Positions 1 through 12,016 of a stretch of 28,399 nucleotides of DNA are shown piece by piece. A program made the translations under genes and the position numbers. The stretch is taken from positions 1 through 28,399 of the IMG/VR virus record IMGVR_UViG_3300032677_000130. One strand, 5' to 3'. The notes beneath the pieces are model-generated. The model ran no database searches, was not told the DNA's origin, and saw only the letters and a program-made list of their open reading frames with translations. Each line of letters opens with the position of its first letter. Within the stretch, counting starts at the first letter, position 1. This DNA comes from a virus.

Positions 1-228
1 ATGAAATGGCTCATTGCTATTCCGTGCTTCATATTGAGCGGGACGTTAGAAGTGGCTGCTTTGTTCGGGATGTACTCACTCTGGTTTGAGCCTTGTCCTC
101 CTACTCACGGTGAAGGCCCGGTGTTCTACATGGCAATTACGGTGATGCTTGGAGGACTTCTCTTAGCCTTGATTTTTGGAGCACCGCTACTAGCTATCGT
201 AGGGATCAAGATTGTGGAGGAGTGCTAA
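1..228 (+). CDS. small membrane protein (possibly partial at 5' end)
   Basis: Encodes 75 residues with two hydrophobic segments, about residues 3-28 and 42-70, separated by a short polar stretch containing EPCPPTHGEGP. It is probably an inner-membrane protein; no family was recognised. The ATG is the first base of the window, so the true start could lie upstream. Its stop overlaps the next start (TAATG), placing it in a translationally coupled run with the next small gene and the helicase. The role is unknown. Confidence 0.6.
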   Translation: MKWLIAIPCFILSGTLEVAALFGMYSLWFEPCPPTHGEGPVFYMAITVMLGGLLLALIFGAPLLAIVGIKIVEEC

Positions 229-392
229 TGACCCCCGACGAACAATCCCTGAAGGACAAACTTGTAGCCTTGATGACGGCCTTCCGCGAGGAGTGTTTGA
301 AGCCGGAGGCCAACCCGTACATTCTTTTGCGGAGATTGGAGATTGAGGTGGAGAACGTGCGCCATGAGTTGATCGTAGCGGGGAAGAAATGA
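228..392 (+). CDS. small hypothetical protein
   Basis: Encodes 54 residues, MTPDEQSLKDK onward, predicted to be mostly helical and charged, with no recognised motif. It is supported by position: its ATG overlaps the upstream stop (TAATG) and its stop overlaps the helicase start (ATGA at 389-392). GGAGG (216-220) lies about 7 bases before the start. The role is unknown; cotranscription suggests early or replication-region expression. Confidence 0.6.
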   Translation: MTPDEQSLKDKLVALMTAFREECLKPEANPYILLRRLEIEVENVRHELIVAGKK

Positions 393-1741
393 CCGATGGA
401 TACGGGAAATCCCTCGATTCAGGACTTCCGGCCTCACCCGAAGCAGAGCGCAGTATTCTTGGGGCAATCTTACTGGACAACAACCTCTGCGACGAAGCGT
501 TTGCGGCCTTAAAAACCGATCACTTCTTCTTGGACGCGCATCGCAGAATCTATACCCGCATGGCCGACTTGACGGAAACCAATCGGCCTGTGGACATTGT
601 GACTATCACTGAGGAACTTCTTAAGCATAAGGAACTGAAAGCCATCGGCGGAGCCGGGTACTTGGCTTCTTTGACGGATGGGGTTCCCAGAAGGAGTTCC
701 CTGAGTCATTACATCGACATCGTAGTGGAAAAGGCGACGTTGCGGAACATGATACACGCCGCCAACGGGATCATCGCAGAAGCTCTGGATTCGGATGCCA
801 AGGCTGACGAAGTAGTATCGAATGCCGAAGCCGCCATTTTGAATGTAGCGGCGGAAGATGAGGGGGAGGCAGTAAAGATTGGAGATGTTTGTGCTGACGT
901 AGAGCGTAGAGTGGCTTGGGGGATATCTGCGAAGAGTGAACGAACGGCTCTGGAATTAACGTGGGGTATTCCAGCACTGGATACTTGGACAAAGGGACTC
1001 TATAGCGGGGAACTCACGGTTTTGGGAGCTGAATCTTCTGGCGGAAAGACGGCTCTTGCCGTACAGGTGACTTTGGCAAATGCGAGGGAACAGACCCCGG
1101 TGGCGTGGTTTTCCATCGAGATGCCCAAGGACAAGCTCACACAGAGGTTCTATCCCCAGATGAGCGAGATTATTACGTCCTTTCACATGCGCGACCCCCG
1201 CAGCATGAACGACAAGGTTCATATTCCAGAGATCATGCGGATGTCGGCGGAACTCCAGACTTTGCCGATATGGATAGACGAGACTTCTTCTATTTCTATC
1301 AAGAAACTGGTGGCACGGATTCGCATGATGCGGCGCAAATTCGGCATCCGTCTTTTCATTTGTGACTACCTCCAGCTAATAGAACCAAGCCGACAGAATC
1401 AGAATGACGGCGGCATTAAGGAAGTGATTTTCGCCCTCCGCGATTTGGTGAAGGTCGAACCCATCCACATTCTGCTACTCTCGCAGTACAGTAAGGCGGA
1501 TAATTTTGGCAAGAAAAAGAGACGCTCGAAAAGCGATTTGTACGGTGGATCAGTCATTCACCACGCCGCACAGAACGTGGTTTTGTTGAGTGTGGAAGAC
1601 CCCGAAGGGAAAGAGGACGGGTACTATCTGGACGTTGAACTCAGAGTGGACAAGCAGCGCGACGGAAAGAAGGGCACGGTTCACTGCATGTTTGATCCGC
1701 ATCACCTCTTGTTCTTCAACCAGCAGCAGTCACTCAGGTAA
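389..1741 (+). CDS. dnaB: replicative DNA helicase, DnaB family
   Basis: A 450-residue protein of normal DnaB length. The N-terminal primase-interacting domain (about residues 14-130) has the family pattern PEAERSILGAILLDN and ends in a YIDIVVEKATLR-like segment. The RecA-like domain has Walker A at 213-221 (GAESSGGKT), Walker B at 323-330 (FICDYLQL) and the conserved KQRDG-KKGTV region at 422-431. DnaB hexamers unwind the replication fork using ATP, so this phage probably directs its own replication. Insertion of an extra Ser/Gly-type Walker loop relative to the common PSMGKT form is a minor difference. It is coupled to the preceding small gene by a 4-base overlap. No loader or primase gene was recognised nearby. 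Confidence 0.95.
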   Translation: MTDGYGKSLDSGLPASPEAERSILGAILLDNNLCDEAFAALKTDHFFLDAHRRIYTRMADLTETNRPVDIVTITEELLKHKELKAIGGAGYLASLTDGVPRRSSLSHYIDIVVEKATLRNMIHAANGIIAEALDSDAKADEVVSNAEAAILNVAAEDEGEAVKIGDVCADVERRVAWGISAKSERTALELTWGIPALDTWTKGLYSGELTVLGAESSGGKTALAVQVTLANAREQTPVAWFSIEMPKDKLTQRFYPQMSEIITSFHMRDPRSMNDKVHIPEIMRMSAELQTLPIWIDETSSISIKKLVARIRMMRRKFGIRLFICDYLQLIEPSRQNQNDGGIKEVIFALRDLVKVEPIHILLLSQYSKADNFGKKKRRSKSDLYGGSVIHHAAQNVVLLSVEDPEGKEDGYYLDVELRVDKQRDGKKGTVHCMFDPHHLLFFNQQQSLR

Positions 1742-1810
1742 AAAGTATTCAAAATAGCCTACAACAGAACCAAACTTGCTAACATCACAAACTATCGGAG
1801 GTACGAAGTT

Positions 1811-2608
1811 ATGACCGCAACATCATTGCACGAACTGCCAAGTGAGGATGAATCGAAACAGATTGCAGAAGATCGCAAGGCTGATGCCAAGAAACGCTAC
1901 CAGAAAATAAAGAAATCAGGAGAGCAGGAAGCCACTTCTTCTATGTCGATTGGCTGGAATGTCTGCTACATGCGAGTACATGGGCTTTGGGGGATGCTTG
2001 GATTCTCCTCAGAAGAAGAAGCCCGTCTTGCTTCTCCGGTTTGCCGCACGACATGGTACACCAACGCTCGCCTCGCAGAAGCCTTTCCCGGCATTGACGA
2101 AGAGCAGTTCACGAGTATGAAACTGACCAACGCGCAAGCCTTGGCGAATCTTCCTGAATCGAAGCGATTGAGTCGTGAGTGGATAAGGGAGGCCGGAAGC
2201 GATTCCATCGAGAAGTTTGCCGAGAAGTGCGATATAGCCCTGAACGGTAAATCCACGGCTTCGGACGGCAAAGAGCGGGGCACGGTTTTGAAGATGCCTA
2301 TGCCGATGAGTTCCAAAACCGTGATTGAGGCTGGATTGAAGGAGTACGCCGAGAAGGTCGGCATCGAGGAGGGCAACACCGGGAAAGCCTTGGAACTGAT
2401 GATCGCTGAGAGAACTGGTCAGACGGGCTTGATCCAAGCAGTCGCCACCACGGCGCGGCGGCTGAAAGAGGCCAAAGCATTGCAGGACTCTGGCCTGAGC
2501 GTGGAGGAAACGCTGGTAAAGGTGTACGAGTTAATTGACGAGGCCATACTTGAACTCGCCAGCAGCCTTGCAGCCGTGCAGAACCTTGATTCTGAAACTG
2601 TTCAGTAA
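1811..2608 (+). CDS. hypothetical helix-rich protein ending in VQNLDSETVQ
   Basis: Encodes 265 residues, highly charged and mainly helical, with an acidic/basic N-terminus, a central segment around KLTNAQALANLPESKRLSRE (about residues 103-122) and a C-terminal helical region. CGGAGG at 1796-1801 gives a good ribosome binding site 9 bases from the ATG. No family was recognised; a role next to DnaB in DNA metabolism is only positional. The last ten codons (2576-2605) spell VQNLDSETVQ. Nearly the same peptide, VQNLDSDTVQ plus stop, is spelled just after the downstream HNH gene at 3361-3393 but with different third codon bases almost throughout. Confidence 0.75.
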   Translation: MTATSLHELPSEDESKQIAEDRKADAKKRYQKIKKSGEQEATSSMSIGWNVCYMRVHGLWGMLGFSSEEEARLASPVCRTTWYTNARLAEAFPGIDEEQFTSMKLTNAQALANLPESKRLSREWIREAGSDSIEKFAEKCDIALNGKSTASDGKERGTVLKMPMPMSSKTVIEAGLKEYAEKVGIEEGNTGKALELMIAERTGQTGLIQAVATTARRLKEAKALQDSGLSVEETLVKVYELIDEAILELASSLAAVQNLDSETVQ

Positions 2609-2625
2609 TTAGTAAGTGGTGTAAA

Positions 2626-2693
2626 ATGTAGAGGTCAGGTGTAGCAAGCACCGGCAAAGCCTATCGTGAAAGGACACGACATGACCTCTACAT
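2626..2693 (+). promoter_or_regulatory. 12-bp inverted repeat enclosing the HNH gene start; -10-like box overlaps left arm
   Basis: ATGTAGAGGTCA at 2626-2637 is the exact reverse complement of TGACCTCTACAT at 2682-2693. In a read-through transcript the right arm would pair the HNH start codon and first codons, with the ribosome binding site in the loop. TAAAAT at 2622-2627, a possible -10 box with only a weak -35 (TGTTCA 2599-2604), overlaps the left arm. A transcript begun there would lack most of that arm and so not fold. The dyad is seen directly; the regulation is inferred by analogy with phage T4 homing endonuclease I-TevI. Confidence 0.55.
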
Positions 2694-3358
2694 CACCTAT
2701 CGTACCACCATGCTCCTGCGGAAAACCTGATTGTAAAATCCCATTTGGATTGTGCCACTGTGGTTGCGGAAGAAAAACAAGCATTTCTACAGAGAATAGA
2801 CCTCGGTATGGAATTAAGAGGGGAGACCCCCAAAGGTTTATAGTCGGACATCATAAATATTTGCGGATAATTCGAGAAGAAGAAGAGCCGTTCGAGGTTG
2901 ATGGGGTATTATGCCGACACATCCCCGTAAGTGGTGGATACAAAGCCATTGTTGATGCTGCCGATTACGAGTGGCTGATGCAGTGGAGGTGGAATTCCTT
3001 AGCATCTAAAAATAGAACGGTTTACGTGCAAAGAAATCTTCCGAGGGAAGATAAGACTCGTGGAACCATTTCGATGCATCGTCAGATCGCCGCAACCCCA
3101 GAAAAGCCACAGGTCGATCACATAAACCACAACGGTCTTGATAATCGCAGGAAGAATTTAAGGCCATGTACCGTTTTGGAAAATGCGAGAAACAGCAGCG
3201 TCAGAAAATGTAATAAATTTGGCATAAAAGGAATTGTTTACGCCAACGGAACATATGGATTTACGCTGCACTGCCGAGGGTTTAAGACCGTAGAAGAAGC
3301 AGCAGAGGCCAGATGGAAAATAATTCAAGAACTCCATGGCGAGTTTGCTTCTCAATAG
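2681..3358 (+). CDS. HNH homing-type endonuclease
   Basis: Encodes 225 residues from ATG 2681, chosen because AAAGGA (2669-2674) sits 6 bases upstream; a GTG at 2666 in frame is less likely. A Cys-rich N-terminus (CSCGKPDC, CHCGCG, residues 11-30) may bind zinc. The HNH core is at about 130-170, with VDHINHNGLDNRRKNLR at 145-161: D146-H147, H150, N155 and N159 fit the family. The C-terminal part (GIKGIVYANGTYGFTLHC, 181-198) resembles AP2-type DNA-binding modules of homing endonucleases. Such enzymes nick or cut a related genome to spread their own gene. It lies directly after the 1811 gene and appears independently regulated by the inverted repeat around its start. Confidence 0.9.
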   Translation: MTSTSPIVPPCSCGKPDCKIPFGLCHCGCGRKTSISTENRPRYGIKRGDPQRFIVGHHKYLRIIREEEEPFEVDGVLCRHIPVSGGYKAIVDAADYEWLMQWRWNSLASKNRTVYVQRNLPREDKTRGTISMHRQIAATPEKPQVDHINHNGLDNRRKNLRPCTVLENARNSSVRKCNKFGIKGIVYANGTYGFTLHCRGFKTVEEAAEARWKIIQELHGEFASQ

Positions 3359-3360
3359 CT

Positions 3361-3375
3361 GTCCAAAATTTGGAC
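3361..3375 (+). repeat. dispersed palindrome copy 1 (GTCCAAAATTTGGAC)
   Basis: Perfect 7+1+7 palindrome starting 3 bases after the HNH stop codon. This copy is 78 bases from the next start, not close to a ribosome binding site. In frame with 3361 it spells VQNLD, then continues as SDTVQ and a stop. Confidence 0.85.
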
Positions 3376-3393
3376 TCGGACACCGTGCAGTAA
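3361..3393 (+). other. orphan C-terminal tail VQNLDSDTVQ-stop
   Basis: Read from 3361, the eleven codons give VQNLDSDTVQ and TAA, 9 of 10 residues identical to the true C-terminus of the gene at 1811-2608. The codons differ from that gene at nine of ten positions, mostly in the third base. It has no start codon or ribosome binding site of its own apart from an implausible overlap with the HNH gene. It may be the displaced original end of the 1811 gene left after insertion of the HNH cassette, or a by-product of the palindrome that makes up its first 15 bases. Confidence 0.35.
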
Positions 3394-3424
3394 AAGCGCC
3401 TCACAAACTCCTTTGTTGTGGCGA

Positions 3425-3470
3425 GAAGGGCCGTTTCTTCCTATCCTTAGAGAATGAGACGGCCTTTTCT
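3425..3470 (+). terminator. terminator-like hairpin overlapping the tail-fibre start codon
   Basis: GGCCGTTTC (3429-3437) pairs with GAGACGGCC (3456-3464) through nine pairs including one U-G, around an 18-base loop, followed by TTTTCT. Purines before the stem can also pair with the U tract. It resembles an intrinsic terminator for the upstream genes, yet the ATG of the tail-fibre gene is at 3454-3456 inside the descending arm. It may therefore be a terminator, a start-site switch, or both. Confidence 0.5.
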
Positions 3471-6400
3471 CTGCGTGCTCGCCCTACTCTGCTGCTTGAC
3501 TTCTCTCGCCTTGGCGGCGAACCCACCTGTGGCCGCAATCTCAGGTATTGCTCTCAACCAATTCGGCCAACCTCTAGCCTACGCGCAGATGCGGATTTGC
3601 TCAGTCACCTCCACGGGAACCCCCTGTACCCCTCCATCCACCGTCTATCAGGACTACGCTCTGACCATCCCGATAGGAAGCCCCGCCACAGACCAATACG
3701 GGAACTATCTTTTCTACGCTCCGGCCTTGGATTATCCCAACCTTTATGAAATCCAAATCTCAGCAGGGCAAGGACTCTATTGGACTTACGTGCAGAACGG
3801 GCCAAGCAGTGGGAGTGGCGGGGGTGGCTCGGCCACGCCCGGACTGCCGCAGTATTCCGTGCAGACCAACTACCCGACCAGCACATTCCACGGCGCGGGC
3901 GACTTGCTCGACCTGACTCCGATTCTCGGGCCGCTTACCTCCACCGGCGACGGCCTGGACTTTGAGTTTACCGACGCTGGCACCTACAGCAACGGCGGCG
4001 CGTTCATTTTTGCCGCCACGGAAACCGCTGCCAGTGGGGCGGACTGCCCTGCCTGCTTCATAGTCAACACCTCGGACACCTACGGCACCAGCGCAGACGT
4101 TCCCGGAGGCGGAGATATCGCGTTCAACGCCTATTCCAAAGGATCGGGCGACGGTCCGGGAGCGTCGGGTGGTTCGCTGGTACTCACGGCCAATAGCCCG
4201 TTTGCGGGAAGCGAAACCGAAGGCCCCGGTGCCCCCGGCACGGTATTCCTCCAATCCAACACCGATGCCCAGGCGGATGGGCTAAACTTCGCCTCCACCA
4301 TCATCGGGGCGGAAACCTACGACGCTTTGGCTGGGAGTGGCGCGGACTTGGCAAACATCCTGATCCGCACCTGCTACGTGGGCAACCCGGTGGCGTATCA
4401 GTCCTGCGACGTGAACGTGGTGGCCAACGGAACGTCTGCCTCGCCGGGCGCGACGCAGGTGGGCAACGTCAACCTCTCCGCCAGCTCCAGCGGCAATAGC
4501 AGCTCCGGACAGATCAACCTCAGCACCAACCCCACGGCCGGGCCGGTGGACGGCACCGAGGGCACCATCAACCTGCAAGGCGCTGCTGTCAACATCTTCC
4601 CCACCGTAGCGCCTTATGGTAGTTATGCCAGCTTTAACTTGCGAGCGGTGGGCAGTGCGGCAGCAGCACAAATCATAGGGGTTGTGGACATATCGCAAAA
4701 TCCTGCATACCCCCCGCCGGATGACGTGGAAATTGTCTCTTCATATGGTGAACCGACCATTCTATCGCTGGGGGAAATCAACATTGCAGCGGATTTAGCT
4801 TCTCAGCCCCCCTCTGGAGGAGCAGCCGACCTCACTGTGACACCTCATTCCACCGAGCCCGCCGCCAAGTTTAACGGTCCAGTCATTGTCACCCCACTCG
4901 GCAGCAGCACCTCGCCTGTTTGCCCGAACGGGACAGGGGGAGCCCTTACTATAACGGGATGCTTAACAGGGCCGATTACCTCCATTGAAGCCAACGGCAC
5001 CCCGATTACCCCGTCTGCCGGAGCCGTGAATCTGGCAGCAGGCACCAACGTCACCTTGACCACGGTAGGCAATACCACCACGATTACATCCTCGGCCACC
5101 GCCGCCACCGCGTTTTCAGCTCTGACCACGGCGACCAATACTTCAGCGGCTATGACGGTTGGATCGGGAGCTAGTTTAGGGACGAGCGGAACGGGCACCA
5201 TTACGGCTACGGGGATGCCTGCTTCGGGCCTGACTGGAACGGCACTCCCTTCGGGAATTGTGAGTTCATCTCTAACCAGTGCAGCAGGCGGTTCGTTTGG
5301 CACCGCCGCCTATGTCACGGCTCCGGCCAACACGACATCCATCGCGCACCAGTTCTTTACTGCCTACAACTCTGGAACGGGCGCGTTCTCTGTGGCACAG
5401 CCAGCCTTTACTGACATTTCCGGTACGCCGTCTACGACTCAGGTTCCCTTTCAGAGTTTGACCACGACAGGAACCACCGGGGCCGCAACTCTTTCAAGCG
5501 GAATTCTAAATGTCCCGAACTACACCTACACCTTACCCACGGCGACCAACTCTGTTTTGGGCGGAGTGAAACCGGATGGCACCTCGATTCTGAATTCTTC
5601 CGGCGTGATTTCCGTAACCCCAACCTCCGTTGGTCTAGGGAATGTGACGAATTTTACCCAAACCAAGGCCGCAATCATGCCCAACACCTCTCCCACGTCA
5701 GGGCAGATTCCAGTAGGCAACTCAGGCGGCACGGCTTACGCTCCGGTAACTGTTAGCGGAGACGCTACGCTGGCTTCTACGGGGGCTTTGACGGTCAACT
5801 CTAGTGGTGGAGTAGCCTTTGGTACAGGAGCGTTTTCCGCAGCCCCAACGATCACTGCAATTCAGAACGCCACGGTAGCGGTGACACCCTCCGCAGGAGC
5901 GATCAACTTTGCTCCTGGCGCGAACATGACGCTCACCACCACAGGCAATACAATCACTCTCGCAGCCTCATCCACGGCAGCCACGGCGTTCTCGGCGTTG
6001 ACAGGCTCAACCAATACCTCCGCAGCAATGGTGGTAGGCTCAGGAGCCTCTCTTGCGGTTTCGGGGACGGGTACGATTGCCGCAACTACGGCGACGACGG
6101 CAACCAACTTTACGGGCTCGCTGGCCGGGGATGTTACGGGCACGCAGTCGGCAACCAGTGTAGGAAAGATCAACGGCGGTTCAATTCCGGCTTCGGCTCC
6201 GGTAGTGGGTACGAATGGCGCAGGTCAGATCGTGGCAGGGCCGTCCAGCCTTCCGCCTAACGGCTCGGCAGGCGGAGACTTGAGTGGAAGCTATCCGAAT
6301 CCGACCGTGGCGAAGGTGAACGGGTTGGCGGTGCCGACTTCGCAGACCGTGGTGGGAACAAATGGTTCAGGGCAGTTCATTGCAGGACCATCGAGTCTGC

Positions 6401-6957
6401 CTCCGAATGGCGCAGCCGGGGGAGATTTAAGTGGCTCGTATCCCAACCCCACGGTAGCCAAGATCAACGGCGGGACGGTTCCCACATCGGCTCCGCTGCT
6501 GGCAACCAATAGTTCTGCTGCGCCAGTAGCCGTAACGATTACAGGGCTCATCAAGGGCAATGGATCGAGTGCGGTGACCGCTGCGGTAGCCGGGACGGAC
6601 TATCTGACCCCTACGGGCTCAGGAGCCTCTCTGACGGGCATTACATCCTCACAGGTAGGAGCGATACAAAAGGTAGCTAGCGGCACGATTGCTTTACCGA
6701 CCTCATCCATTGCCACAGGAACGTGCGCGACGGCCACAGCGACGGCCACAGGGGCGCTGACTACGGACGTATTGAATATCAGCCCCAACGCCGACATTAC
6801 AGGCGTAACAGGCTACGCACCAACGGGCCAGATTGTGCAGATTTACCCGCCGTGGCTGACCGCAGGACAGGTAAACGTTAAAGTCTGCAACCCTAGCGCC
6901 AACAGCTCTGCCATCACGCCGGGGGCCGTCACTCTGGTTTGGAATGTAGGTAGGTAA
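3454..6957 (+). CDS. tail-fibre-like repeat protein with N-terminal signal peptide
   Basis: Encodes 1167 residues. Residues 1-22 form a typical Sec signal peptide (MRRPFLCVLALL start, LALA-A cleavage region). A small beta-type domain follows (about 27-115, ISGIALNQFGQPLAYA) and then a Gly/Ser linker (SSGSGGGG). The long Ala/Thr/Ser/Gly-rich body carries two 66-residue duplicated segments and tandem 49-residue GGDLSGSYPNPT repeats, as in phage tail fibres; the C-terminus (VNVKVCNPSANSSAITPGAVTLVW) resembles fibre tip domains. The likely role is host binding. A signal peptide is odd for a virion protein, so a surface or secreted adhesin is the alternative. An in-frame TAG at 3448 fixes the start at or after 3454, and no clear Shine-Dalgarno precedes it. 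Confidence 0.75.
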   Translation: MRRPFLCVLALLCCLTSLALAANPPVAAISGIALNQFGQPLAYAQMRICSVTSTGTPCTPPSTVYQDYALTIPIGSPATDQYGNYLFYAPALDYPNLYEIQISAGQGLYWTYVQNGPSSGSGGGGSATPGLPQYSVQTNYPTSTFHGAGDLLDLTPILGPLTSTGDGLDFEFTDAGTYSNGGAFIFAATETAASGADCPACFIVNTSDTYGTSADVPGGGDIAFNAYSKGSGDGPGASGGSLVLTANSPFAGSETEGPGAPGTVFLQSNTDAQADGLNFASTIIGAETYDALAGSGADLANILIRTCYVGNPVAYQSCDVNVVANGTSASPGATQVGNVNLSASSSGNSSSGQINLSTNPTAGPVDGTEGTINLQGAAVNIFPTVAPYGSYASFNLRAVGSAAAAQIIGVVDISQNPAYPPPDDVEIVSSYGEPTILSLGEINIAADLASQPPSGGAADLTVTPHSTEPAAKFNGPVIVTPLGSSTSPVCPNGTGGALTITGCLTGPITSIEANGTPITPSAGAVNLAAGTNVTLTTVGNTTTITSSATAATAFSALTTATNTSAAMTVGSGASLGTSGTGTITATGMPASGLTGTALPSGIVSSSLTSAAGGSFGTAAYVTAPANTTSIAHQFFTAYNSGTGAFSVAQPAFTDISGTPSTTQVPFQSLTTTGTTGAATLSSGILNVPNYTYTLPTATNSVLGGVKPDGTSILNSSGVISVTPTSVGLGNVTNFTQTKAAIMPNTSPTSGQIPVGNSGGTAYAPVTVSGDATLASTGALTVNSSGGVAFGTGAFSAAPTITAIQNATVAVTPSAGAINFAPGANMTLTTTGNTITLAASSTAATAFSALTGSTNTSAAMVVGSGASLAVSGTGTIAATTATTATNFTGSLAGDVTGTQSATSVGKINGGSIPASAPVVGTNGAGQIVAGPSSLPPNGSAGGDLSGSYPNPTVAKVNGLAVPTSQTVVGTNGSGQFIAGPSSLPPNGAAGGDLSGSYPNPTVAKINGGTVPTSAPLLATNSSAAPVAVTITGLIKGNGSSAVTAAVAGTDYLTPTGSGASLTGITSSQVGAIQKVASGTIALPTSSIATGTCATATATATGALTTDVLNISPNADITGVTGYAPTGQIVQIYPPWLTAGQVNVKVCNPSANSSAITPGAVTLVWNVGR
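5011..5208 (+). repeat. tail-fibre internal repeat A, copy 1
   Basis: A 66-codon segment (SAGAVNLAAGTNVTLTT through SGTGTITA) whose protein closely matches the segment at 5887-6085. Both contain TAATAFSALT, NTSAAM and VGSGASL. The duplication lies inside the fibre body. Confidence 0.75.
5887..6085 (+). repeat. tail-fibre internal repeat A, copy 2
   Basis: The second copy (SAGAINFAPGANMTLTT through SGTGTIAA) of the segment at 5011-5208. The peptides are clearly alike while many codons differ, so the duplication is not recent. Confidence 0.75.
6160..6453 (+). repeat. two tandem 147-bp repeats (49 residues each) in tail fibre
   Basis: Units begin at 6160 and 6307, and a degenerate third begins at 6454, with an exact 147-base period. 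Each unit reads V(G/A)K(I/V)NG...VP.S...VGTNG.GQ..AGPSSLPPNG.AGGDLSGSYPNPT. This is a common fibre-shaft repeat that can vary in copy number by recombination. Confidence 0.85.
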
Positions 6958-6966
6958 GTCTCTGGA

Positions 6967-6981
6967 GTCCAAATTTTGGAC
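6967..6981 (+). repeat. dispersed palindrome copy 2 (GTCCAAATTTTGGAC)
   Basis: Perfect 7+1+7 palindrome flanked by A and T. It lies between the tail-fibre stop and the start at 6996, immediately before the GGAGGAAC ribosome binding site. Confidence 0.9.
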
Positions 6982-6995
6982 TGGAGGAACAAAGC

Positions 6996-7295
6996 ATGAA
7001 GCCGACGTGGATACTTGTAGTGCTGACGATGACGACGATGAGTTTCGCGCAGAACCCCAAGACCGACTGTACCGACAAAGGCGGTTTGGCGCAGATGGGG
7101 CCGAAAGGGGAATACTGGGGCTGTACTTGGGAACAGAACGCTCCCGGTGGACACTCAATCATTCCCAAGGATTGCAAGAAAGTGGTGGACAAGGACGGCG
7201 TAACGGTTTTGACCTGCGGAAAAGTTGCTGATAACCCTCCGCAATCCGAACCCGATCAGCACGAATCGCAAGCAAAACCGCAAAGTCAGATTTAA
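6996..7295 (+). CDS. small secreted protein
   Basis: Encodes 99 residues. Residues 1-18 are a Sec signal peptide (MKPTWILVVLTMTTMSFA, cleavage before QNPK). The mature part has four cysteines that could pair in the periplasm, a GGLAQMGPKGEYWGCTW segment and a Pro/Gln-rich polar tail. GGAGGAAC precedes the ATG and a palindrome copy lies just upstream of it. No family was recognised. Its place before the lysis genes is compatible with an envelope role, but that is not evidence of function. Confidence 0.7.
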   Translation: MKPTWILVVLTMTTMSFAQNPKTDCTDKGGLAQMGPKGEYWGCTWEQNAPGGHSIIPKDCKKVVDKDGVTVLTCGKVADNPPQSEPDQHESQAKPQSQI

Positions 7296-7308
7296 GAAAG
7301 GGAAAATA

Positions 7309-7626
7309 ATGGGTCCAGCAGGAGAGCATCGCAGGTTGGAAGATGACCAGCATTTTGTAGATCGAGACGTTGCTCTCTGGCGCACGATTGCGTGTAGTGC
7401 CATGACAGCCGTGGTGATGCTTGTAGGTTCATGGGCCACGCACTCGGTTACGCAAGATCAATTGAATACTGCCCTTGCCAACGAGGACAAGGTATTCTCG
7501 GAACGATTTGACAATGTGAGGGTTACCTTGACCGATATTCAGAACGACCAGAAACACATCATGGAAATGATGGACGACATGAAAGTGGGCGGAGAAACTC
7601 GTCCTAAGCGGGTAGACTTACGGTGA
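7309..7626 (+). CDS. single-span membrane protein with helical cytoplasmic or periplasmic tail
   Basis: Encodes 105 residues from ATG 7309, preferred over the in-frame ATG at 7225 because that one lies inside the previous gene and AAAGGGA is well placed before 7309. One transmembrane helix spans about residues 24-46 (WRTIACSAMTAVVMLVGSW). The following charged helix (about 50-92) may form a coiled coil. The arrangement resembles accessory lysis or holin-like proteins next to endolysins, but no conserved motif proves this. Confidence 0.65.
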   Translation: MGPAGEHRRLEDDQHFVDRDVALWRTIACSAMTAVVMLVGSWATHSVTQDQLNTALANEDKVFSERFDNVRVTLTDIQNDQKHIMEMMDDMKVGGETRPKRVDLR

Positions 7627-7634
7627 GGCGCAAA

Positions 7635-7786
7635 ATGTGTGAACTCTGCGAACACGACAAGACGGAACCGGGGTAACTCTTTGCAAGCCATGTATAGAGA
7701 TGATCGAGCGAGTACGGGCAGCGCAAGACCGGATCACTTTTCAAGCGGTTCAGCAGGCTTTGAAGGCGTTAGCCAAGGGAGCATAA
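7635..7786 (+). pseudogene. frame-interrupted zinc-ribbon protein
   Basis: From ATG 7635 the frame reads MCELCEHDKTEPG and stops at TAA 7674. One frame back, from the GGGG run at 7670-7673, the reading continues VTLCKPCIEMIERVRAAQ to a TAA at 7784-7786. Joined, the two parts make a 50-residue protein with paired CxxC motifs (CELC and CKPC), which neither part has alone. A -1 slip on GGGG, or one extra G, would join them. This is either a sequencing or real deletion in a homopolymer, or programmed frameshifting. The following gene has good spacing after the second part. Confidence 0.55.
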
Positions 7787-7791
7787 GGTCG

Positions 7792-7995
7792 ATGACGGTT
7801 ACGACCCTGCATACCACAATTAGTTCCTTGCGTTCTTTAGCCAACATGCAGTATGTTCTTGCGTGGCTGGAGTTGAACAAGCATCTTCCCGGCGACACCA
7901 AGGTCGATGTTACCCCTACCTCTGTCATCATTACCGAACATTCAAAGTCAGCCAGTTTTACTCAAGTGTGTGATCCGTTCAAGGAGGATTTCTAG
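7792..7995 (+). CDS. small hypothetical protein
   Basis: Encodes 67 residues from ATG 7792, chosen because AAGGGAG at 7775-7781 and AAGG near 7785 precede it; the same frame is open further upstream, but that region is better explained by the frame-interrupted zinc ribbon. The sequence has an N-terminal helix (LRSLANMQYVLAWLELNKHL) and a short beta stretch (DVTPTSVIIT). Its function is unknown. Confidence 0.55.
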   Translation: MTVTTLHTTISSLRSLANMQYVLAWLELNKHLPGDTKVDVTPTSVIITEHSKSASFTQVCDPFKEDF

Positions 7996-7998
7996 GCG

Positions 7999-8220
7999 AT
8001 GACTTACGTTTACCAAGGAGACGGAACCTATCTTTGTGCAGGCGATGGCGTAACCCAGCACCACAATTTAGAGACATTGAAAGCCTGTCCCTGTTGTTTT
8101 CCGATGTGTGAAGAAGAGAACTGCCGTGACTGTCAGGAGTTTGAGGGCGGAATGTGTCGCGGCCATCACAAGGTTCACGAGACGCACTGCTGCACCCTAT
8201 TTCGACGGAGGGCGGCATGA
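7999..8220 (+). CDS. cysteine/histidine-rich small protein
   Basis: Encodes 73 residues with eleven cysteines and several histidines (CPCCFPMCEEENCRDC, then CRGHHKVHETHCC), strongly suggesting metal binding or a small zinc-finger fold. AAGGAGG at 7981-7987 is the likely ribosome binding site. Its stop overlaps the endolysin start (ATGA at 8217-8220), so the two are cotranslated. No named family was recognised. Confidence 0.6.
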   Translation: MTYVYQGDGTYLCAGDGVTQHHNLETLKACPCCFPMCEEENCRDCQEFEGGMCRGHHKVHETHCCTLFRRRAA

Positions 8221-11614: not shown

Positions 11615-12016
11615 ATGGAAACTGAAACGAAAGCACTGTACACGCCGGGTCCGTGGGTTTACCTCACTGGATATGGAGAATATTTCCCGCAAGTGAGAAT
11701 TGGCCCTAAGCACCCAATCTGCTATAACGTCGGGAAGATAACAATCAACGAAGGCTGCTCTCCTGACAGCCTATCCGAGTTCCATAGGACAGGCAACACC
11801 GACAAATTGATCGGCACGACGCTTGAGACAGCAGAGGCCAATGCCCGCCTGATTGCCGCCGCACCGGAACTGCTGGAGGCTCTGAAAGCCTTCGGAGTTC
11901 CGATGGCTACGCGCGATGAATTTTGCTTTGACGATTGTGCCGTCCACGAGTTACGGGAGCATTCGCCCAATTGCGCCGCTGCCCGCGCTGCTGTCACCAA
12001 GGCGGAAGGCCGCTAG
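11615..12016 (+). CDS. phage hypothetical protein, 'METET...GPW...PELLE' family, paralogue 2
   Basis: Encodes 133 residues: METETKALYTPGPW, then a variable centre, EANARLIAAAPELLEALK (about residues 74-91) and AARAAVTKAEGR at the end. The last helices are the hallmark of this common phage family of unknown function. Start, end, ribosome binding site (GGAGGAACGGGG) and upstream palindrome are shared with the gene at 9472, while the centres differ. It has its own promoter at 11536. Confidence 0.82.
   Translation: METETKALYTPGPWVYLTGYGEYFPQVRIGPKHPICYNVGKITINEGCSPDSLSEFHRTGNTDKLIGTTLETAEANARLIAAAPELLEALKAFGVPMATRDEFCFDDCAVHELREHSPNCAAARAAVTKAEGR

Follow-up and report, generated by a model that had tools for sequence, protein, structure and literature searches.

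In the window, that is, the whole 28,399-nt stretch of metagenomic viral DNA analysed here, the extreme 3' end of one phage gene appears to have been entered by a selfish gene for a DNA-cutting enzyme (IMG/VR record IMGVR_UViG_3300032677_000130). In the preferred reading, to which we assign a probability of about 0.7, an HNH homing cassette was placed at the 3' end of the gene starting at position 1811, the peptide tail in front of the HNH gene being the donor's and the tail behind it the native one. Such an event would account for a short duplicated, differently spelled peptide that flanks the HNH gene. The features concerned are as follows.

1811..2608, + strand: invaded gene, 265 aa, matching no known family and immediately following a DnaB-like helicase; other soil phages encode relatives at 41–46% identity
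2573..2608, + strand: AVQNLDSETVQ-stop, the tail in use; it contains no palindrome and is interpreted as donor-derived by analogy with the relatives L109/L035
2609..2680, + strand: HNH leader, with a folded element at 2627-2692
2681..3358, + strand: HNH endonuclease gene, 225 aa, with an HNH_3 domain; GTG at 2666 is a possible alternative start
3358..3393, + strand: putative stranded native tail, AVQNLDSDTVQ-stop, its first base shared with the HNH stop codon
3361..3375, no strand assigned: palindrome GTCCAAAATTTGGAC in the stranded tail, at a distance of 79 nt from the next gene; the corresponding place in relatives also holds a copy
3454..6957, + strand: next gene, 1167 aa, repetitive; its N-terminal part is conserved in relatives, downstream of the 1811 homologue

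The front tail closes the open reading frame 1811-2608, and the rear tail lies behind the HNH gene. The sequence-only reading had described the repeat as VQNLDSETVQ and VQNLDSDTVQ on the two sides of the HNH gene; it was recovered at 2576-2608 and 3361-3393 and found to run one residue further leftward, to an alanine written GCC at 2573 and GCT at 3358. Ten of the eleven residues and the stop codon are identical, the sole residue change being E to D, whereas the 36 nucleotides show 11 differences. Third codon positions account for ten of these, and the remaining one is a synonymous first-position change in a leucine codon. So many third-position differences would arise under random placement with P = 2.7e-6, in agreement with the protein-level conservation proposed from the letters. 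When the last 30 residues and stop of the 1811 gene were compared with the 450 nt downstream, the best ungapped match scored 50, whereas shuffling gave 20.3 ± 3.0 (p ~2e-6). Since the differences are codon-periodic and the match lies far beyond chance, both copies evolved while coding for protein in this frame. In the same kind of test the window scored 49 and 24 other HNH loci 12–37, none of them carrying a comparable tail duplication, and the notion that this HNH family duplicates tails as a rule was rejected. As a separate observation, L057 (~340-1010) has a distant HNH gene preceded by an ORF from which a 22-nt AT-rich stretch (ACAAAATCAAATATTATAAAAA) reappears, with one difference, ~30-40 nt behind that HNH gene; this may reflect either chance or another duplicated gene end.

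The assignment of the front tail to a donor draws on an occupied and an empty allele in relatives. In L109 (and in L108, 99.97% the same), a different HNH gene lies directly behind the 1811 homologue; its protein is 30% identical to that of the window over 116 aa. Compared with L035, a near-twin that lacks the HNH gene, L109 is 100% identical from the gene's aligned start to nt 4167 and only ~62% identical over the aligned remainder of the 1811 homologue. Behind this diverged part stand a leader and the HNH gene, the native sequence returns at the last codons (GAGGCaGCATGA), and identity is 99.6% over the following 3.4 kb. The cassette thus came into L109 along with a replacement of the final two thirds of the gene, and the combination of a diverged C-terminal part, an HNH gene and native resumption is the mark of flanking-DNA conversion with an inserted endonuclease gene. 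The native remnant in L109 comprises ~4 codons and partly doubles as the Shine-Dalgarno sequence of the next gene. A match of the rear copy to an uninvaded gene end is short in L109/L035 (~4 codons), and the uninvaded relatives of the window are all distant.

HNH presence and absence were observed at two junctions. At the 1811 junction, L108/L109 are occupied and L035/L036 empty, while at the junction between the terminase and the next gene the window and L026 are empty and L018 holds an HNH gene. In L025, the gap from the terminase end (~1715, reverse strand) to the next gene (~1660) reads ELFAQYARQEA, resembling the C-terminus of the L018 HNH protein at the same junction, and is likely a deletion scar of an HNH cassette. 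A short tail remnant considered behind the L018 HNH gene was dropped, as this scar suggests that it is the HNH gene's own end.

Applied to the window, the pre-event 1811 gene would have ended in AVQNLDSDTVQ-stop, with the palindrome in frame inside the tail, where the HNH enzyme presumably cuts. A free-standing homing cassette, composed of a structured leader and the endonuclease gene, would have arrived by break repair from a relative with nearly the same 1811 tail in different codons. The copied stretch would have brought the donor tail and stop to the 1811 gene, followed by the HNH gene, and repair would have rejoined recipient DNA immediately before the recipient's own tail. The protein ending and the palindrome of the next gene would thereby be kept, the native tail persisting as an untranslated leftover. 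The earlier proposal that the cassette carried a replacement tail and left the old one behind is thus upheld as far as the tails are related, the cassette lies between them and L109/L035 provide an analogue; the window's own event is inferred, because its HNH-less relatives are just 41–46% identical and have other tails. Those uninterrupted homologues, to which the same reading had looked for the native ending, stop in QASQRQSEAA (L035, L036, L037) or NKENEVVEEVPG (L038), like neither window tail. This outcome is awkward for the sequence-only reading, which had named such a mismatch as refuting it. Similarity in the family alignment fades over the final twelve or so residues, indicating that tails vary, and these homologues are too distant, and the tail too fast-changing, to be decisive.

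Within the 1811 protein, residues 81-215 of the window are nearest L038 (57%, vs 43% for L109), and residues 216-255 are nearest the HNH-bearing L109 (53%, vs 30% for L038). Discordant sites stand at 12:30 vs 11:4 (Fisher p = 0.005 in the L038 comparison, on small numbers), with weaker values against L035 (0.10) and L037 (0.06). Conversion of flanking DNA along with the cassette is therefore only suggested for the window. Several points count against the preferred reading. In a tail that otherwise changes fast, one would not quite expect residues to stay almost identical once synonymous sites are saturated, and an uninterrupted close relative of the window's 1811 gene was not found in the collections searched. 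The shortness of the native remnant in L109, the lack of a comparable duplication at the other HNH loci and the small numbers of the mosaic comparison also weigh against it. The relatives, which encode the 1811 homologue behind DnaB, were reached via a palindrome scan. Scanning viral_contigs with the 1811 protein or the helicase as single queries brought up no relatives, nor did a profile scan of genome_contigs; no match was obtained in the phages collection by blastn of window 1-8000 or tblastn of the 1811 protein, and 396 genomes of the Terriglobus phylum gave just two weak partial matches.

An alternative, which we regard as unlikely, is that the insertion itself duplicated the tail and that selection later changed the codons of the front copy where it stood, whether to escape the HNH enzyme, to remove a palindrome from before the HNH gene or to reduce direct-repeat recombination. 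It draws on the lack of a palindrome in the front copy and on the fact that all nine same-residue codons differ between the tails (P = 0.014 under independent codon choice), slightly more than synonymous saturation. Recoding would, however, require ten mutations at silent sites alone in the front copy, with the untranslated rear copy, unconstrained outside the palindrome, left unchanged. A donor needs no special selection, as its saturated synonymous divergence explains the silent differences without selection against cutting, and donor replacement does happen in L109/L035. Silent differences brought in by a donor may nevertheless also shield the site from the enzyme, as the sequence-only reading had suggested.

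The first half of the rear tail is one of 11 dispersed palindrome copies (GTCCAAATTTTGGAC) in the window, nine with up to 1 mismatch and two one base shorter, located at 3361, 6967, 9444, 10112, 11583, 13191, 16705, 18546, 20348, 23017 and 26448. Pattern matches number 18 on both strands, against 0.8 expected, and the copies lie mostly in gaps, a short distance ahead of a Shine-Dalgarno sequence with its start codon. The same palindrome, or an outer-base variant, occurs in other soil phages at 1–16 copies per record, the reversed control giving none. Written as (A)GTCCAAATTTTGGAC(T), it has an outer base that differs in relatives (e.g. CTCC in G011, ATCC in G002). The palindrome also precedes the homologue of the 3454 gene in L037 (CTCCAAAATTTGGAC) and, partially, in L035/L036. 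With repeated sites at gene starts in the window genome and its relatives, a feature of operator sets, the element is probably an operator or leader element and a putative control site of the next gene. In genome_contigs, 30 single hits were spread over many phyla and look like chance. A second palindrome-like sequence (TCTAGAATCTAGA) adjoins the common one in L027 (~11650-11690) and L008 (~830-870). Copies inside genes (window 10112 and 23017; L027 13516; L038 2348) read VQ(N/I)(L/S)D, a frame probably favoured for being harmless in flexible protein parts.

In the tail frame the palindrome reads VQNLD, so that half of the rear peptide is fixed by it, and the sequence-only reading had also considered the palindrome as the source of both tails. 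Independent origins from palindromes read in this frame, with subsequent decay of the front one, would suit the frequent occurrence of in-gene copies in the same frame, yet we consider them very improbable. The front tail is without the palindrome, agreeing with it at 9 of 15 positions; its departures there are all silent; and the match outruns the palindrome on both sides (A before; S, E/D, T, V, Q and stop after), with P = 6e-9 when the palindrome is taken as given. On these grounds the palindrome is not supported as the source of both tails.

The HNH gene is identified by PF13392 (E 1.4e-6, above the cut-off) and phrog_99 (E 1.7e-24). In its leader, the opening codons of the HNH gene take part in the closing stem and the Shine-Dalgarno sequence lies in a hairpin loop, an arrangement common to these HNH genes, in which the 5' part pairs with the first codons and the loop of an inner hairpin holds the Shine-Dalgarno sequence. 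In 8 of the 10 HNH loci read, the leader begins no more than ~20 nt behind the upstream stop. Across five sequences, the 18 pairs of the fold are 89.9% kept and eight are changed on both sides; covariation is 0.45, compared with 0.197 ± 0.046 in shuffles (0/500) and at most 0.18 when slid. A model of the leader retrieved further ones, including L042, L004/L115, L007/L058 and L120, and most ORFs behind them have the cysteine-rich N-terminal motif of the HNH proteins; the same model found nothing in three Acidobacteria genomes. The covarying branched form was seen ahead of HNH genes in the window (2627-2692), L018, L042, L044, L060, L106, L004, L007, L115 and L120, with start codons within or adjoining its closing stem, and L043 and L109 show a simpler version. 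A search of 2400-3600 against Rfam up to E = 1 returned no family, group I and group II introns included. HNH cassettes are thus linked to a folded leader RNA that is absent from Rfam and possibly represents an undescribed RNA family.

The same search bears on a reading that we hold to be highly improbable, in which an intron, or some other element that is spliced out or bypassed, harbours the HNH gene and the rear tail still serves as 3' exon in a spliced product. The position and coding signature of the rear copy would fit, but the interval holds no match to an intron RNA core, a stop already ends the front tail, and the rear copy and the HNH gene stand in different reading frames, with no obvious frameshift site by eye; the intron reading was rejected. 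Equally hard to credit is a C-terminal motif functionally kept in two genes, the second lost except for its tail, which the strong conservation of residues over silent change would favour, since a degenerate scan of viral_contigs for the tail peptide came back empty and the 1811 relatives lack this tail.

Beyond the preferred reading of the window, it may be that HNH cassettes with a folded leader specialise in gene–gene junctions, where a silently rewritten upstream end would keep the protein whole and make the occupied allele uncuttable, the native end being left to carry the control signal of the next gene. This generalisation is put forward tentatively and is, in our estimate, doubtful.

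Several known systems offer points of comparison. Repeats in phiC31 and SPbeta are dispersed phage operators. Mycobacteriophage stoperators occur throughout the phage genome as numerous sites of nearly the same sequence, for the most part in the gaps that precede genes (PMC9283540). The window palindrome resembles them in number, near-identity and placement; unlike the asymmetric stoperator, it is a near-perfect palindrome.

In T4-like phages, the free-standing mob (HNH) and seg (GIY-YIG) endonucleases lie between genes and spread by break repair with flank conversion, and RNA hairpins cover the start signals of some of them (PMC2988022). The cassettes described here share the position between genes, the flank conversion and an RNA fold at the start signals. 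The window differs in its branched leader, with the Shine-Dalgarno sequence in a loop, from the hairpins presented there, and in the stranded duplicate of the host gene's end, of which the cited passages describe no T4-like counterpart.

A further parallel is found in fungal mitochondria, where mobile endonuclease ORFs with C-terminal replacement occur in Allomyces atp6 and in Glomus atp6, atp9, cox2 and nad3 (PMC3630166). These ORFs bring a foreign gene end and leave the native end behind, with differences that are mainly silent; the Glomus atp6 copies share 63.5% DNA and 91% protein identity (PMC3630166), close to the 69% and 91% of the window tails over 36 nt. Common to both are a C-terminal duplication around an endonuclease ORF, mainly silent differences and, in the preferred reading of the window, an inserted copy in use beside a stranded native one. 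The fungal enzymes are of the LAGLIDADG or GIY-YIG type, whereas the window has an HNH enzyme in a phage, a much shorter duplicate (11 codons) and a palindrome in the stranded tail. The occupied and empty phage alleles illustrate how a selfish endonuclease can enter a gene end with the gene and its neighbour's control signal unbroken, and would extend to phages a trick known from fungal mitochondria.
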